A DNA stretch of 64,000 nt from Massilia litorea. GTDB lineage: Bacteria; Pseudomonadota; Gammaproteobacteria; Burkholderiales; Burkholderiaceae_D. The stretch covers positions 3,224,001 to 3,288,000 of the forward strand of contig NZ_CP062941.1 of assembly GCF_015101885.1 (NCBI RefSeq), read 5' to 3'. The position numbers were made by a program, and so were the translations under genes. Position 1 is the first letter of the stretch; each line of letters opens with the position of its first letter. The notes under the pieces are model-generated. The model searched no databases. It was given only the letters and a program-made list of their open reading frames with translations, and had not been told where the DNA came from. This document shows positions 6,538 through 64,000 of the stretch, piece after piece.

Positions 6538-7683
6538 TCAGCCGGAATCGGCAGCCTTGCGCGGCGCGCGGCGCCCGCGGATCTCTTCGAGCTTGATGGC
6601 AACGTGGCGTGTGTGCACGAACTGCGCCGGGCGCTGATTGTCGAGTGCCAGGTCCGGCGCCATCGGTCCGCCCGTGCGCACGCCCGCCAGCGCGACCCTG
6701 GCTGCCGCCAGCGGGTGCGCGATGGTGTCGAGCACGGCACTCGCCTCGTAGCCGCTGTGCACCATGCAATCGGCGCACTTTTCGTAGCGCCCGGTGCCGT
6801 AGGCATCCCAGTCGGTCTCGTCCATCAGTTCCCTGAAACTGGCGGCATAGCCTTCGCCCAGCAGGTAGCAGGGGCGCTGCCAGCCGAACACGGTGCGCGC
6901 CGGGTTGCCCCAGGGCGTGCAATGGTAGGTCTGGTTACCCGCCAAAAAGTCCAGGAACAGGCTGGACTGGCTGAAGGCCCATTTGCGGCCGCGGTCGCCG
7001 CGCGCAAAAATGTCGCGAAACAGTTGCTTGGTTTTCGAGCGGGTGAGGAAGTGGTCCTGCTCCGGGGCGCGTTCGTAGGCATAGCCGGGCGAGACCGTGA
7101 TGCCGTCGACGCCGAGTTCCTTGACCGAATCAAAAAACGCGGCCACGCGCTCGGGTTCGGCGTCGTTGAACAGCGTGCAATTGATGTTGACGCGAAAGCC
7201 GGCTGCCTTGGCGCGCCCGATTGCCGCCACCGCCCGTTCGTACACGCCCGGTTGGCAGACCGAGCGGTCGTGCATCTGCCGGTCGCCGTCGAGGTGCACC
7301 GACCACACCAGGAAGGGGCTGGGACGGTACTGGTCCAGCTTTTTCTCCATCATCAGCGCGTTGGTGCACAGGTAGACGAAGCGGCGGCGCGCGACGATGC
7401 CGGCCACGATCTCCGGCATCTCCTTGTGCAGCAGCGGCTCGCCGCCGGCAATCGAGACGACCGGGGCGCCGCACTCGTCGACCGCGCCCAGGCACTCGTC
7501 GCGCGACAGGCGCAGGTTCAGGATCTCGTCGGGATAATCGATCTTGCCGCAACCCGCGCAGGCAAGGTTGCAGCGAAACAGCGGTTCGAGCATCAGGGCG
7601 AGCGGATAGCGCTTCTGTCCCGCCAGGTGCTTGCGCAGGATGTAGGCGCCGACGAGGGTCTTTTGCAGCATCGGAATGGCCAT
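6538..7683 (-). CDS. hpnH: Adenosyl hopane synthase, radical SAM protein HpnH
   Basis: 381 residues. The radical SAM cysteines are C38, C42 and C45 (CNLACAGC). A C-terminal pair of cysteines (CADCMVHSGYE) is typical of the family. HpnH joins a 5'-deoxyadenosyl group to diploptene, the first step of hopanoid side-chain building. The start MAIPMLQK at 7683 was chosen because the domain begins here and ispH ends 11 bases before it; the frame stays open upstream but only over ispH antisense. The nucleosidase HpnG expected next in the pathway is not in the window. Confidence 0.94.
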   Translation of the reverse strand: MAIPMLQKTLVGAYILRKHLAGQKRYPLALMLEPLFRCNLACAGCGKIDYPDEILNLRLSRDECLGAVDECGAPVVSIAGGEPLLHKEMPEIVAGIVARRRFVYLCTNALMMEKKLDQYRPSPFLVWSVHLDGDRQMHDRSVCQPGVYERAVAAIGRAKAAGFRVNINCTLFNDAEPERVAAFFDSVKELGVDGITVSPGYAYERAPEQDHFLTRSKTKQLFRDIFARGDRGRKWAFSQSSLFLDFLAGNQTYHCTPWGNPARTVFGWQRPCYLLGEGYAASFRELMDETDWDAYGTGRYEKCADCMVHSGYEASAVLDTIAHPLAAARVALAGVRTGGPMAPDLALDNQRPAQFVHTRHVAIKLEEIRGRRAPRKAADSG

Positions 7684-59558: not shown

Positions 59559-61019
59559 TCAGAACGACATCGGCACCCGCACCATCAGGGTCACGTCCGG
59601 CGTGTCCCTGGTCAGGCCGGCACCGACGGCCACGCTCAGCGTCTTCTTGTCGCTGAGGCGGTAGGAATAGCCGATCAGCAGGGTGCCGAGCTGGAGGCGC
59701 ACCGAGCCCGGCACCGTGCGGCCGGACTGCTTGGTGCGGGCGACCGAGTTGTGGTCGTAGCCGACGCTGAACGAAGCCTTGTCGTTCAGGGCCAGGCCCA
59801 TGCCGAAGTTGAACCCGATCACGCCGCCGGGCGCGACTTCCCCGAGCGACTCCTTTTCGCCGTTCAGCACGGTACGCGAGACGTCGCGCTTGAAGTTGTG
59901 CAGGTAGCTGAAGCTGCCGAAGAACACGGCCGGATCGGACGGGAACAGCCAGGTGAGGCTCGGCTGCAGCGAATAGAAGCCGGAGCCGGTCGGGAGTTCC
60001 AGGGGCAGGCCGCTGCCCGTGATGTTTTCGCCGATGCAGCGGCGCTGGCAATCGGTCGTGACCTCGAACGGGTCCTTGCCGGTGCGCGACTTGAAGCGCA
60101 GGCCGCCGATGAAGAAGGGCTTGTCGACGCCGCCGTCGTTGAGCTGGTAGCGCGCCGCCAGTTCGACGTCGCCGATCGCCTTGCCGCTCGTCTCGAAGGC
60201 GCGCTCGACGGCGGTGCCGGTGAAGACTTCGCGGCTGACCGTGGCGTCGCTGCGGTACACATAGGGCAGCTTGGCCTCGACTTCGAAGCGGTTGGTCAGG
60301 CCGCGGCGCAGGGTGGCGGTGGCGGTGGTCGTGTTGCGTTTGACTTCGCGGACGTCGATCAGGCCGATCAGGAGGGCAGGGATGACGGTGTAGCCGACCA
60401 GGGCCACGCGGTTGCTCGACGAATAGGCGTACTGGAGGGCCGGTTCGAAGACGTATTTTCCGCGCGGTGTCAGCACGCCCGGCTGTTCGAAGATCGGGGC
60501 GACCTCGCGCGGGCGGCTGTTCTCGCTCGGGGCGCGGCCGACGGGGGCGGTGTTCGTTGCTGCAGTCGGCGCGCTCGCCGGGCCGCCGACCGGGGCGGCC
60601 GGCGCCGCGGGCTGCTGGGGCGCGCCGGCAGCGCCCGGCGCGCCGCCGGTGCCGCGCATGGACCCGAGCTGGGCGCCGGAAGCCGGCACGGCCAGGCCCG
60701 CGGCCAGGGGCGAACTCGTTGCCGGATCAGGCGGCGCGTTGCCGGTGCCGCGCGTGCCGTCGAGCGTGGCGTGCGAGACCGCGCCGCCGGCCAGCATCGG
60801 GTCCGCCGTCGCGGCCGCGGCCGGCCCCGGCGCCGTGGCGCGTGCCGTGCGCACATCGCGCTCGAGTTCATCGATGCGTGTGCGCTGGGCCTCGAGCTGC
60901 TGGCGCATCGCTTTCACCTGTTCAGCCAGTTCCTGGACGGATTGCGCCTGCGCCGGAAGAGCGCAAAAGGCCGCGCTGACGGCGAGTGCTCCAGCACATA
61001 GCGCCGGGATCTTCTGCAT
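59559..61019 (-). CDS. FapF-like outer-membrane beta-barrel secretion protein
   Basis: 486 residues. Signal peptide to about PAQAQS. Residues 22-60 form a coiled coil (VQELAEQVKAMRQQLEAQRT), next comes a Gly/Ala/Pro-rich linker (about 60-165), then a beta-barrel (VFEPALQYAYSSSNRVALVG to a terminal MVRVPMSF ending in Phe). Coiled coil plus linker plus barrel is the layout of FapF, the secretion pore for functional amyloid. The start at 61019 is set by GGAG six bases upstream; an earlier ATG at 61031 is less likely. Last gene of the fap-like operon. Confidence 0.75.
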   Translation of the reverse strand: MQKIPALCAGALAVSAAFCALPAQAQSVQELAEQVKAMRQQLEAQRTRIDELERDVRTARATAPGPAAAATADPMLAGGAVSHATLDGTRGTGNAPPDPATSSPLAAGLAVPASGAQLGSMRGTGGAPGAAGAPQQPAAPAAPVGGPASAPTAATNTAPVGRAPSENSRPREVAPIFEQPGVLTPRGKYVFEPALQYAYSSSNRVALVGYTVIPALLIGLIDVREVKRNTTTATATLRRGLTNRFEVEAKLPYVYRSDATVSREVFTGTAVERAFETSGKAIGDVELAARYQLNDGGVDKPFFIGGLRFKSRTGKDPFEVTTDCQRRCIGENITGSGLPLELPTGSGFYSLQPSLTWLFPSDPAVFFGSFSYLHNFKRDVSRTVLNGEKESLGEVAPGGVIGFNFGMGLALNDKASFSVGYDHNSVARTKQSGRTVPGSVRLQLGTLLIGYSYRLSDKKTLSVAVGAGLTRDTPDVTLMVRVPMSF

Positions 61020-61043
61020 AAATTGCTCCATGGTGGTGGGCCG

Positions 61044-61568
61044 TCAGCGGGGCGCTACGGCTGTTGTCAAAGCATTATTCAAGCTTGTTCCAAAATTAAG
61101 CGCACGTAACATTCCGGCGGTATTCACGGTGGCGTTGATGGCGGTCTGGTTCCGGATGATCTGGTCGTTCAGCGAGTTCTGGATGATGGTGCCGCCGAGC
61201 AGGTTCTGTGCATTGCCGGCCATCGTGCGCACGTCGCCGTTCTGGATCAGGCGCAATTCGCCGACGGCCTGGGTGGACAGGGTCGCTTCGCCGCGGGCCA
61301 GCTTGCCGATGTCGCCGAGCTGCAGTTCGGTGCGCTCGACAACGTTGCCGTTGATGGAGACCAGGCGCTCCAGGCCCAGGTTGACCATCAGGCCGTCGCC
61401 GGTGAGGAAGCCGCCGCGCGCCCCGTCGAGGGTGGCGTCGTCGACCGCATCGGCCGGGTCGAAGGCTGCCAGGGCGGGCGCATCGGGCGCCGCCGCCATG
61501 GCCGCGCCCGCCATCGACAGCAGCAGGAGCGGCAGGGAAGTGAAAAAGCTTGGGCAGGTCCGCCGCAT
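61044..61568 (-). CDS. Small secreted protein with double-glycine motif (FapE position)
   Basis: 174 residues. Signal peptide to about AAMAAAP. Residues 42-53 (VDDATLDGARGG) match a double-glycine processing site, with hydrophobic residues at -12, -7 and -4 before GG52-53. The rest is beta- and Asn/Gln-rich, with IIQNSLNDQIIRNQTAIN at 128-145. No named domain. Between the C39 protease (nine-base gap) and the barrel (24-base gap), so it may be a secreted component cut by that protease. Confidence 0.7.
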   Translation of the reverse strand: MRRTCPSFFTSLPLLLLSMAGAAMAAAPDAPALAAFDPADAVDDATLDGARGGFLTGDGLMVNLGLERLVSINGNVVERTELQLGDIGKLARGEATLSTQAVGELRLIQNGDVRTMAGNAQNLLGGTIIQNSLNDQIIRNQTAINATVNTAGMLRALNFGTSLNNALTTAVAPR

Positions 61569-61577
61569 GGTGTGTCC

Positions 61578-62273
61578 TTAAAAATCGCCGGGGCCGAATT
61601 TCGGCAGCCCGTAAATACTGTCGAGGGCGCGGCTGGCGCCTTCGGCGAGCGGCGCGCGTGGCGCATTGCGCCAATCGGCGGCCTGGTTGAAAGCGGGTTT
61701 CACCGGCCCTTCGTGGATCACGAACAGGATCCGGTTGGCCCAGAGCGATTCGAAGCGTTCGCGCGCCATCAGGCGGGTGCCGCGCGACGGGTCGCCCAGC
61801 AGGATGCGCCCGTCTTCCGCGCCCTTGATCACGACGAAATGCTGGTAGCCATTGTCGGAAATGAGGACGATCGCCGGCAGTTTCGCTTCGATGAGTTTGT
61901 CGAGCGGCAGCTGGAAGCCGTTGGCGGTGAAGCCCCGGTCTTTCAGGAAGCGCTGCATGTCGAGCAGCGAAAAGCCTTCGCGCCGGATCTTCTGCTGGTC
62001 GCCGCCGGCAAACATGGCCTGAAACGCGACCTCTTCCGTCGTCGGCGTGTTGTAGTGGTGGGTCAGTAGCGTGGCCAGCGCGGCCGAGCCGCAGCTGAAG
62101 TCGTACTGCTGGCGCAGCGTTGCCTGGAAGCGCAGGTCCTTCATGCTCTTGACGGGCATGCTGCCGACGCGCATGCCATTGGGCAGTGCCAGTTCGGCCG
62201 AATGCGCGGCGGCATGGCCGAGCAGCAGGGCCAGGCTGCCGGCAAACGTGCCAAGTCGTACGCGATGTCTCAT
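61578..62273 (-). CDS. Periplasmic C39-type cysteine protease (FapD-like)
   Basis: 231 residues. Signal-like N-terminus (residues 1-26), then a C39 peptidase domain with catalytic C61 (YDFSCGSAALATLL), H145 (GYQHFVVIKG) and D161 (LGDPSRG), and the oxyanion Gln at 55-56. There is no ABC transporter attached, unlike bacteriocin exporters. FapD proteins are such stand-alone proteases needed for Fap amyloid secretion. The ATG at 62273 overlaps the stop of the preceding gene (ATGA). Confidence 0.82.
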   Translation of the reverse strand: MRHRVRLGTFAGSLALLLGHAAAHSAELALPNGMRVGSMPVKSMKDLRFQATLRQQYDFSCGSAALATLLTHHYNTPTTEEVAFQAMFAGGDQQKIRREGFSLLDMQRFLKDRGFTANGFQLPLDKLIEAKLPAIVLISDNGYQHFVVIKGAEDGRILLGDPSRGTRLMARERFESLWANRILFVIHEGPVKPAFNQAADWRNAPRAPLAEGASRALDSIYGLPKFGPGDF

Positions 62274-62719
62274 TTGAACTGCAGGTTGATGACCGTCGCG
62301 CTCTGGATCAGCACATTGGCGCCGGTGTTCTGGATCACGACCGGAATGCCGGACATGTTGGCGAAGGAGCCGGAATCGATGGTGTTCGACCCGGTGTTGA
62401 CATTGGTGGCGCTGTTGTTCGCCACGTCGCCGTTGAGCTTGGTGTCGTTGAGGACGGTGTCGGCGCGGCCACGTTCGTGCTCGAGCTTGTCGAGGTCGAC
62501 CGCCTGGACCCGGTCGCCGCCGATGGAAAGAGTGGTGGCGGGTTCCTGCGCCAGCGGGGGCGGCGCCCTCAAAACCTGTTCGATCCCTGCGATCGCGGGC
62601 GCACCGATCCGTTCGGGTGCCACCGTGGCAGGTTCGCCGGCGCAGGCCTGGCCAACGAAGGCGGCCAGTGCCAGGACGCAGGCATGCGGTAAGCGGGGCA
62701 TTGCAAAAATCGTGTTCAT
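62270..62719 (-). CDS. Small secreted Asn/Gln-rich protein of the fap-like operon
   Basis: 149 residues. Signal peptide to about GQACAGEP. A charged helical part (LDKLEHERGRADTVLND) precedes a beta-rich end: NVNTGSNTIDSGSFA, then IPVVIQNTGANVLIQSATVI. The end aligns with the C-terminus of the Gly-rich protein at 62793. It may be a minor subunit or nucleator (FapA/FapB-like by position); homology is not shown by eye. RBS GGGAG. Confidence 0.7.
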   Translation of the reverse strand: MNTIFAMPRLPHACVLALAAFVGQACAGEPATVAPERIGAPAIAGIEQVLRAPPPLAQEPATTLSIGGDRVQAVDLDKLEHERGRADTVLNDTKLNGDVANNSATNVNTGSNTIDSGSFANMSGIPVVIQNTGANVLIQSATVINLQFK

Positions 62720-62736
62720 CGTGTCTCCCTGAATCA

Positions 62737-62767
62737 GATTGCCGCGCCCGCGAAGGGCACGGCAATC
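62737..62767 (-). promoter_or_regulatory. RNA hairpin between the Gly-rich gene and the rest of the operon
   Basis: On the minus strand the RNA reads GAUUGCCGUGCCC, loop UUCGC, GGGCGCGGCAAUC: 13 base pairs including one U-G wobble. The wobble pairs only in the minus-strand RNA (the plus strand has a C-A mismatch), so it works as RNA of this operon. No T-run follows, so read-through to the next genes is possible. Confidence 0.65.
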
Positions 62768-62792
62768 CCTGCTTCACTACGCTCGGTTCAGC

Positions 62793-64000
62793 TTACGGGC
62801 CGACGGACAGGTTGCTCTGGACGTTGACGCTCTGCTGGATCAGGGACGAGAAGCCGTTGTTCTGGCTGAGGACCGTCACGCCTGCGGCCGACTGACCGAC
62901 ATTGGTCATGGTGTTGGACATGTCGAAGGTGCCTGCGTTGACGGTGTTGGTGCCGCCCGCGCCGCCGGTCGCCGCGCCGCCGGCGCCGCCGGTGCCGGTA
63001 CCGGCCGTGTTGGTGCCGCTCGCACCGCCCATGCCACCGGTGCCGGTGCCACCGGCGCCGCCCGCGCCGCCGGTGCCGGCCGTTGCCGTGCCCGAGGTCC
63101 CCGAACCGCTGGTGGCGGTGCCCGAGGTGGCGTTACCGCCCGCCGACCCTGCGCCGCCGGTGTTTGATGCCAGGCCGGTGGAACCGCCCGCGCCGCCCGC
63201 ACCGGCTGCCGCGCCCGCGCCGCCGGTCGAGGTGCCGGCCGTGGCCGAGCCGCCTGTGCCGCCTGCGCCGCTGGTGCCGGTGCCTGCCGCGCCGCCGGTA
63301 CTCGACAGGGCCGCGCCGGCGCCGCCGGTGCCGCCGGTAGCGGTACCGCCGGCCGCGCCTGCGCCGCCCGCGCCGCCTGCCGCGCCCGCGCCGCCTGCGC
63401 CGCCCGTGCCAGTGCCTGCCGAGGCCGTGTTGGTGGCGCCGGTCACGGTGCCGCCGGTGCTGCTGGCAGTGCCGCTGTCAGCCGCGCCGCTGGCGCCGCC
63501 GGTCGAATCCGGGGTCGAGGCGCCGCTGCCGCTGGAGGCCGTGTTACCGCTCATGCCGGCGCCCGCGCCGGATGCGTCGCCCGTCGACGATGCGCCGCCG
63601 ACCGTCACCATGCCGCCGGCCGCGCCGCGTCCGCCGAGTCCGCCAGTGCCGCCCATGCCGCCGTCACCCGCAGCCACCCGGCCGGCGTTACCGCCGTTGC
63701 CGCCACTGCCACCCATCGCTGCGCCGCCGGCGCCGCCGGTACCGGCGCCGCTCGCGCCGCCGGCACCGCCCATGCCGCCACCGGCGTTACCGCTGGAGCC
63801 GCCCGCGCCGCCGGCACCACCTGCACCGCCCGACGCGCCCGATCCGCTCGTCGCATTCGATGCCAGGCCGCCGGCGCCGCCTGAACCTGCGGTGGCGCCG
63901 CCTGCGCTGGCAGCACCGGCGCTTGCCGATCCGGTCGTGGCGTTGCCGCCGGTCGAGCCCGACGCCGCCATGCCGCCCGTGCCGCTGGCGCCGGCCCCGC
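62793..64000 (-). CDS. Very Gly/Ala/Ser/Thr-rich secreted protein, candidate amyloid subunit (3' part only)
   Basis: At least 402 residues; the frame is open to the window edge, so start and signal are outside. From the edge to about 62945 it is made of GG-, GA-, GN-, ST-containing triplets with almost no large hydrophobic or charged residues. The last 55 residues differ: TNTVNAGTFDMSNTMTNV, then VLSQNNGFSSLIQQSVNV. The C-terminal part aligns with the neighbour at 62270. Gene order places it at the FapC (fibre) position. Low complexity may hide assembly errors. Confidence 0.75.
   Translation of the reverse strand, partial: GAGASGTGGMAASGSTGGNATTGSASAGAASAGGATAGSGGAGGLASNATSGSGASGGAGGAGGAGGSSGNAGGGMGGAGGASGAGTGGAGGAAMGGSGGNGGNAGRVAAGDGGMGGTGGLGGRGAAGGMVTVGGASSTGDASGAGAGMSGNTASSGSGASTPDSTGGASGAADSGTASSTGGTVTGATNTASAGTGTGGAGGAGAAGGAGGAGAAGGTATGGTGGAGAALSSTGGAAGTGTSGAGGTGGSATAGTSTGGAGAAAGAGGAGGSTGLASNTGGAGSAGGNATSGTATSGSGTSGTATAGTGGAGGAGGTGTGGMGGASGTNTAGTGTGGAGGAATGGAGGTNTVNAGTFDMSNTMTNVGQSAAGVTVLSQNNGFSSLIQQSVNVQSNLSVGP

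Follow-up and report, generated by a model that had tools for sequence, protein, structure and literature searches.

The last part of a 64-kilobase (kb) window of the Massilia litorea genome (the whole stretch of DNA analysed; G000 contig 1, positions 3224001–3288000) carries five adjacent genes for predicted secreted proteins, which raises the question of which export system they form and what that system delivers. Among the open reading frames (ORFs) of the window, the minus-strand operon is arranged in the order fibre candidate, small protein 1 (small 1), C39 protease, small protein 2 (small 2) and pore, and all five proteins have signal peptides as judged by eye. This is the order claimed in a preliminary description of the DNA, and it corresponds to fapC-(X)-fapD-fapE-fapF of the Pseudomonas functional amyloid (Fap) system, as that description proposed. 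Read from its sequence, the locus is a new sister class of Fap: it appears to work like Fap and lacks the repeat-bearing FapB and FapC that are a defining feature of canonical Fap. The explanation that we consider likely for the locus as a whole is a sigma-54-controlled export operon, sister to the Pseudomonas Fap amyloid system (fapABCDEF, under BrfA/RpoN control), whose export apparatus probably places a glycine-rich protein on the cell surface.

The machinery of the locus is of the Fap type. The pore (490 residues; minus strand, 59559–61031) consists of a signal peptide, a coiled-coil segment, a disordered-looking linker and a barrel. In a sequence search, pore residues 171–489 matched the solved FapF structures 5o65, 5o67 and 5o68 with E values of 3.9e-31 to 3e-32. 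The NCBIfam FapF model scores 162 bits against the pore (equivalog cut-off, 700), compared with 43 bits for FilC, a component of the Fil putative pilus of Acinetobacter. Pore residues 30–66 display a strong 3.5-residue hydrophobic periodicity that none of 5000 shuffles equalled. The pore thus combines a coiled coil with a FapF-type barrel, as in canonical Fap and as the preliminary description had claimed, and its sequence does not place it in an unrelated porin family devoid of a coiled coil, the outcome named there as counting against a Fap-like locus.

The protease (minus strand, 61578–62273), whose ATG overlaps the stop codon of small 1, is of the FapD type. Its best NCBIfam match is FapD (C39_FapD; 136 bits, cut-off 330), followed by FilB (128 bits). 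The catalytic residues C61, H145 and D161, described earlier as intact, are indeed so and are invariant in 15 of 15 aligned sequences. As in canonical FapD, a stand-alone C39 domain is combined with a signal peptide and intact catalytic residues, and the protease would therefore act after Sec export. It also aligns with the C39 domains of bacteriocin ATP-binding cassette (ABC) exporters of known structure, which it resembles in fold (by sequence) and catalytic residues; unlike those domains, it is stand-alone and carries a signal peptide.

The operon is conserved as a unit. Two sets of related loci were compared. The first contains 30 loci, or 31 in a leader-profile test to which L093 was added. 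The second contains the best 80 of 538 confirmed relatives, obtained by scanning named genome contigs with the protease alignment, and it consequently leans to close relatives; because at least five of its 80 contigs, going by their lengths, are also in the first set, the two sets are not independent. L085, L089 and L093 were included in the protease tree and, except for L093 in the leader profile, in no other count. With search models trained on the first set, all five genes were found in 71 of the 80 loci located through the protease (fibre C-terminal module, 78/80; barrel, 72/80), the reverse of the lack of co-occurrence that the preliminary description had named as a second outcome speaking against it. 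Genera among the best 80 include Massilia, Telluria, Duganella, Rugamonas, Variovorax, Cupriavidus, Ralstonia, Pandoraea, Paraburkholderia, Polaromonas, Rhodoferax, Dechloromonas, Lysobacter and Luteibacter. Around the closer C39 relatives, the unit of regulator, fibre, small 1, C39, small 2 and pore recurs, with the pore sometimes on the opposite strand. A related C39 at E 1e-20 or better is present in 100 of 294 genomes of the host family, a count in which several C39 classes are pooled, and the FapF model matches 38 of 398 phylum-drawn genomes at E 1e-8, seven of them above the cut-off. Among the database matches listed for small 1 (best 120 of 566) and small 2 (best 120 of 169), all organism-named ones are from Massilia; a protein-database search with the fibre C-terminus returned two homologs only.

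In a tree of 52 C39 domains, 25 class members lie on one side of a branch with support of 98/95, and the canonical Fap proteases, next to the class in the tree, lie on one side of another branch (93/93). The Fil-like proteases are also separate, except for that of L072, which was initially misgrouped. The tree program flagged L055, L088 and L093, among others, as long branches and also issued a warning about long branches that meet. The locus is not a one-off but belongs to a conserved clade found mostly in Burkholderiales, with members elsewhere in Pseudomonadota. Two irregular arrangements were seen: L088 contains the small 1, C39 and small 2 cassette twice in tandem, with equal match scores, and L086 (genome G018) encodes a second FapF-like barrel with no C39 or cargo match within its 13-kb stretch.

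The regulatory region resembles that of Fap as well. A sigma-54 activator with an N-terminal VpsR domain is encoded outside the window at 7005–8327 of L005, an 18-kb genome stretch containing the complete operon, and shares 48% identity over its length with the regulator beside fapF in the Pseudomonas-type control locus L076. Between the activator and the fibre gene, 64 bases from the ATG and likewise just beyond the window, lies a strong −24/−12 sequence (L005:6538–6553). In the second set, 56 of the 78 loci with a fibre C-terminal module were usable for a promoter test (first set, 20/27). Of these 56, 47 have the pattern TGGCAYN6TGC ahead of the fibre gene, versus 2 of 265 control windows, and the best sigma-54 sites are located 55–90 bases from the ATG in 50 of the 56. 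Within 5.5 kb upstream of the protease, such a site was found in four of seven canonical loci and in none of the four distant members L081, L082, L087 and L088. In P. fluorescens PF07, brfA, which occupies the same place, and rpoN are required for fap expression and mature biofilm (PMC9207406).

The main cargo differs from that of Fap. The fibre gene runs past the window edge; its C-terminal part lies at 62793–64000 on the minus strand, and in L005 the gene is a complete ORF with a signal peptide that continues to window-equivalent position 64472 and encodes 559 residues. The protein comprises the signal peptide, N/Q/S/T-rich repeats, a conserved N-terminal module, a Gly-rich core and a conserved C-terminal module (residues 506–559; minus strand, 62796–62957). 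The core (368 residues, 42% Gly) is rich in Gly, Ala, Ser and Thr and exhibits a triplet periodicity, with a lag-3 autocorrelation of 0.21 compared with a maximum of 0.18 in 1000 shuffles, in agreement with the triplet-rich fibre candidate reported before. Although present here, such a core is not universal in relatives: the candidates of L081, L082, L083 and L088 are N/D/S-rich with 6–18% Gly, and those of L083, at 8–9% Gly, make the Gly-rich core look lineage-specific. L085 and L089, class members from another family, encode a Gly-rich fibre candidate that ends in a different C-terminus and lacks the usual QN module.

The long protein could leave through the barrel and not polymerise; it would then be a Gly-rich matrix protein, adhesin or surface coat whose export the small proteins assist. 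Its Gly-triplet core unlike Fap, its strong variation in length and composition among relatives and its lack of a confident predicted fold would all be consistent with such a role. The C-terminal module, however, is shared with small 1 (hhalign, 85%, E 5.8e-6), which suggests assembly, and the homologous machinery in Pseudomonas exports fibre subunits (PMC5557850). We regard a non-polymerising product as unlikely.

Small 1 (149 residues; minus strand, 62270–62719), small 2 (174 residues; minus strand, 61044–61568) and the fibre candidate matched no Pfam or NCBIfam family at E 0.1. The FapA, FapB, FapC and FapE models matched nothing at the locus, whereas the same library matches them in L076, whose FapC scores 164 bits and is itself under its cut-off of 195. 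FapB and FapC subunits carry Fap repeats, almost always three (PMC12822426; PMC3792158). A hidden Markov model (HMM) of 30 canonical repeats detected none of the 80 loci at E 1e-3 but all seven left-out canonical loci, and no repeat-bearing FapB and FapC of the canonical kind were found at the locus. Applied to single class proteins, the repeat HMM gave nothing significant, with weak scores of at most 8.8 bits for small 1 (maximum of 300 shuffles, 7.3 bits).

The three cargo candidates are nonetheless connected. The C-terminus of small 2 resembles small 1 in a profile comparison (89%, E 2e-6), and the fibre and small 2 modules show no direct profile match (0.4%). The fibre candidate, small 1 and small 2 thus end in related modules with small 1 as the link, which suggests co-assembly. 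Small 1 also displays a weak similarity to Fap repeats (7.6%, E 0.0046). Twelve canonical FapB/FapC proteins were used for a register test with a position-specific scoring matrix and BLOSUM smoothing; in 8 of the 12, the best ungapped match of the small 1 module coincides exactly with the register of the repeats. The fibre module does so in 2 of the 12, and a third match lies, by eye, at a repeat overlooked by the repeat pattern, which also missed FapC of L076 and FapB of L080. In our reading, small 1 contains a single diverged repeat of the Fap type, making it FapB-like through this one module, and provides the only link between the fibre C-terminal module and Fap repeats. The earlier statement that the fibre lacks the known Fap repeats holds for recognisable repeats and does not extend to an unrelated origin. 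The Fap-like interpretation as a whole retains its machinery, its gene order and a main cargo lacking known repeats, and is corrected in that the fibre has a relation to Fap.

An ordinary but diverged Fap operon, with the long protein as a FapC that makes cross-beta amyloid, would explain the gene order, the FapD- and FapF-type proteins, the BrfA-like control and the register of small 1. It is at odds with the missing FapA, FapB, FapC and FapE matches, with the repeat HMM that recovers every left-out canonical locus and no class locus, and with the separate protease clade, and we consider it less likely still than a surface coat.

The sister-class explanation gains a possible function for the protease from a conserved motif near the N-terminus of small 2. 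The predicted leader site LDGARGGF (residues 47–54; minus strand, 61407–61430) has counterparts of the form LxxxRGG[FY] in 30 of 30 first-set loci, and LxxxRGG is present in 78 of 80 second-set loci versus 5.5 expected from shuffles. R51, G52, G53 and F54 are invariant in 25 of 25 sequences. Over both sets, L is found at −7 in 106/107, R at −3 in 107/107, G at −1 in 106/107 and F at +1 in 99/107, counted with a pattern that itself demands L/M/V/I at −7, R/K at −3 and G at −2. Double-glycine leaders follow a rule of L at −7 and GG at −2/−1, and the predicted small 2 site resembles those of bacteriocin ABC-exporter C39 domains in this respect. When scored with a profile built from small 2 alone, small 1 exceeds 95% of its shuffles in 24 of 31 loci and the N-terminal part of the pore does so in 15 of 31, with 2/27, 0/31 and 3/21 for the fibre, protease and regulator controls. 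In the second set, small 1 contains LxxxRG in 65 of 79 loci versus 7.8 expected, with G at −1 in 61; a looser pattern (72/79 versus 24.0 expected) was dropped as too loose. The N-terminal part or linker of the pore contains LxxxRG in 42 of 72 loci versus 11.6 expected, and the residue at −1 is T in 21, A in 10 and G in 5 of these 42. Here, the pore linker carries LDGTRGT (minus strand, 60744–60764; shuffle fraction 0.02) and LGSMRGT (60648–60668), so that the first pore site reads RGT where the small 2 site reads RGG. The LxxxRG(G) motifs of small 2, small 1 and the pore linker are candidate sites of the protease.

The position of small 2 and its motif recall FapE, which in most canonical loci has an RG-type N-terminal site. 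In the seven canonical loci, the FapE-position protein bears RG[RK][FY] (five loci) or TGK[FY] (two loci) near its N-terminus, whereas the present class has RGG. The C-terminus of small 2 has only a 2.3% hhalign score to FapE, and any resemblance would lie in the gene order and in the N-terminal RGG site at the FapE position. A reading in which the small proteins are bacteriocin-kind products with the long protein incidental is highly improbable despite the leader-like LxxxRGG and the alignment of the protease with bacteriocin-exporter C39 domains, given that no ABC exporter was seen by eye among the ORFs of the 18-kb L005, that all parts have signal peptides, and that the fibre C-terminal module and the barrel accompany the protease in most loci.

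For the sister class, we infer cleavage, export, assembly, fibre formation and function from these features as follows. The BrfA-like sigma-54 activator next door would switch the operon on, and all five proteins would be carried across the inner membrane by Sec. In the periplasm, the FapD-like C39 protease would cleave the N-terminal leader of small 2 behind LDGARGG, probably also that of small 1, and would perhaps cut or dock at the LxxxRG motif in the linker between the pore coiled coil and barrel. The FapF-like barrel would then deliver the long protein, together with the small proteins after their processing, to the surface. There, small 1 may nucleate assembly in the manner of FapB, small 2 may initiate or anchor it in the manner of FapE, and the long protein may be the main subunit of a fibre or matrix.

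Several observations weigh against this mechanism or its Fap relationship. The pore and the protease score far below the FapF and FapD equivalog cut-offs. The fibre C-terminal module does not match Fap repeats in a profile comparison (0.5%), and only 3 of the 12 top scores in the small 1 register test beat 95% of shuffles. The candidate leader site of small 1 in this genome, LEHERGR (minus strand, 62465–62485), reads RGR instead of RGG and, at a shuffle fraction of 0.197, is not significant alone. LxxxRG is missing from 30 of the 72 second-set pores, and T at −1, as in both pore sites here, is not known as a usual residue at a C39 cut. AlphaFold models of the 392-residue window part of the fibre candidate and of small 2 are of low confidence, with mean predicted local distance difference test scores of 41.2 and 49.4, respectively.

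Earlier work on Fap suspected a cleavage step. FapD needs its catalytic cysteine, and in PMC5557850 and PMC6173800 its substrate is left open and FapE appears in mass spectrometry without N-terminal peptides. A 2025 review names FapE and FapF as presumed substrates of FapD (PMC12822426), so such processing had already been suspected; the addition made here is a conserved candidate site and small 1 as a further candidate substrate. The question of the FapD target would thereby become a site-level prediction: the cut would follow RGG in small 1 and in the protein at the FapE position, and the pore linker holds a related motif. If this is true, a single secretion route would have been reused with very different fibre chemistry. 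The broadest Fap screen found, as set out in PMC12822426, requires recognisable FapB/FapC repeats near other fap genes and would consequently pass over the present class. An earlier review found homologs of fapD and fapF located together in five more phyla and took this as a conserved interaction (PMC6173800), and the present class supplies a candidate cargo set for fapD/fapF pairs within Pseudomonadota. A literature search, judged by titles and abstract openings and with most subscription journals outside its coverage, returned no description of the five-gene operon or the LxxxRG site.

The Fil putative pilus (FilA, FilB and FilC; NCBIfam NF050077–NF050079) likewise pairs a stand-alone C39 protease with a FapF-related barrel, and in Fil-like loci the signal peptide of the cargos is followed by a leader-like site. 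The present locus differs in its protease clade, its lack of a FilA match and a barrel closer to FapF than to FilC, and was not assigned to Fil. A literature search for FilA, FilB and FilC together found nothing, most subscription journals being outside its coverage. In the Fil-like loci L056, L060, L062–L065 and L067, the leader-like site, such as LSxVSGQDGVS, directly follows the signal peptide in proteins near the different C39/barrel pair. It was observed in 17 of 49 signal-peptide ORFs versus 0.5 expected, in 7 of 12 loci, although overlapping ORFs may have been counted twice. These loci suggest that stand-alone periplasmic C39 proteases in general read leader-like sites.

A broader proposal, which is possible and which we hold only tentatively, is that a stand-alone periplasmic C39 protease and a FapF-family barrel form a general post-Sec pathway for double-glycine-like leaders with exchangeable cargo, used by at least three systems (Fap, the present class and Fil-like loci), and that the cargo here builds a putative non-cross-beta Gly-triplet fibre, for example of the polyglycine II type. 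A further C39 clade was encountered in L069 and L073, where neighbouring small secreted proteins have MDxVTAG or LDQVAGG following the signal peptide.

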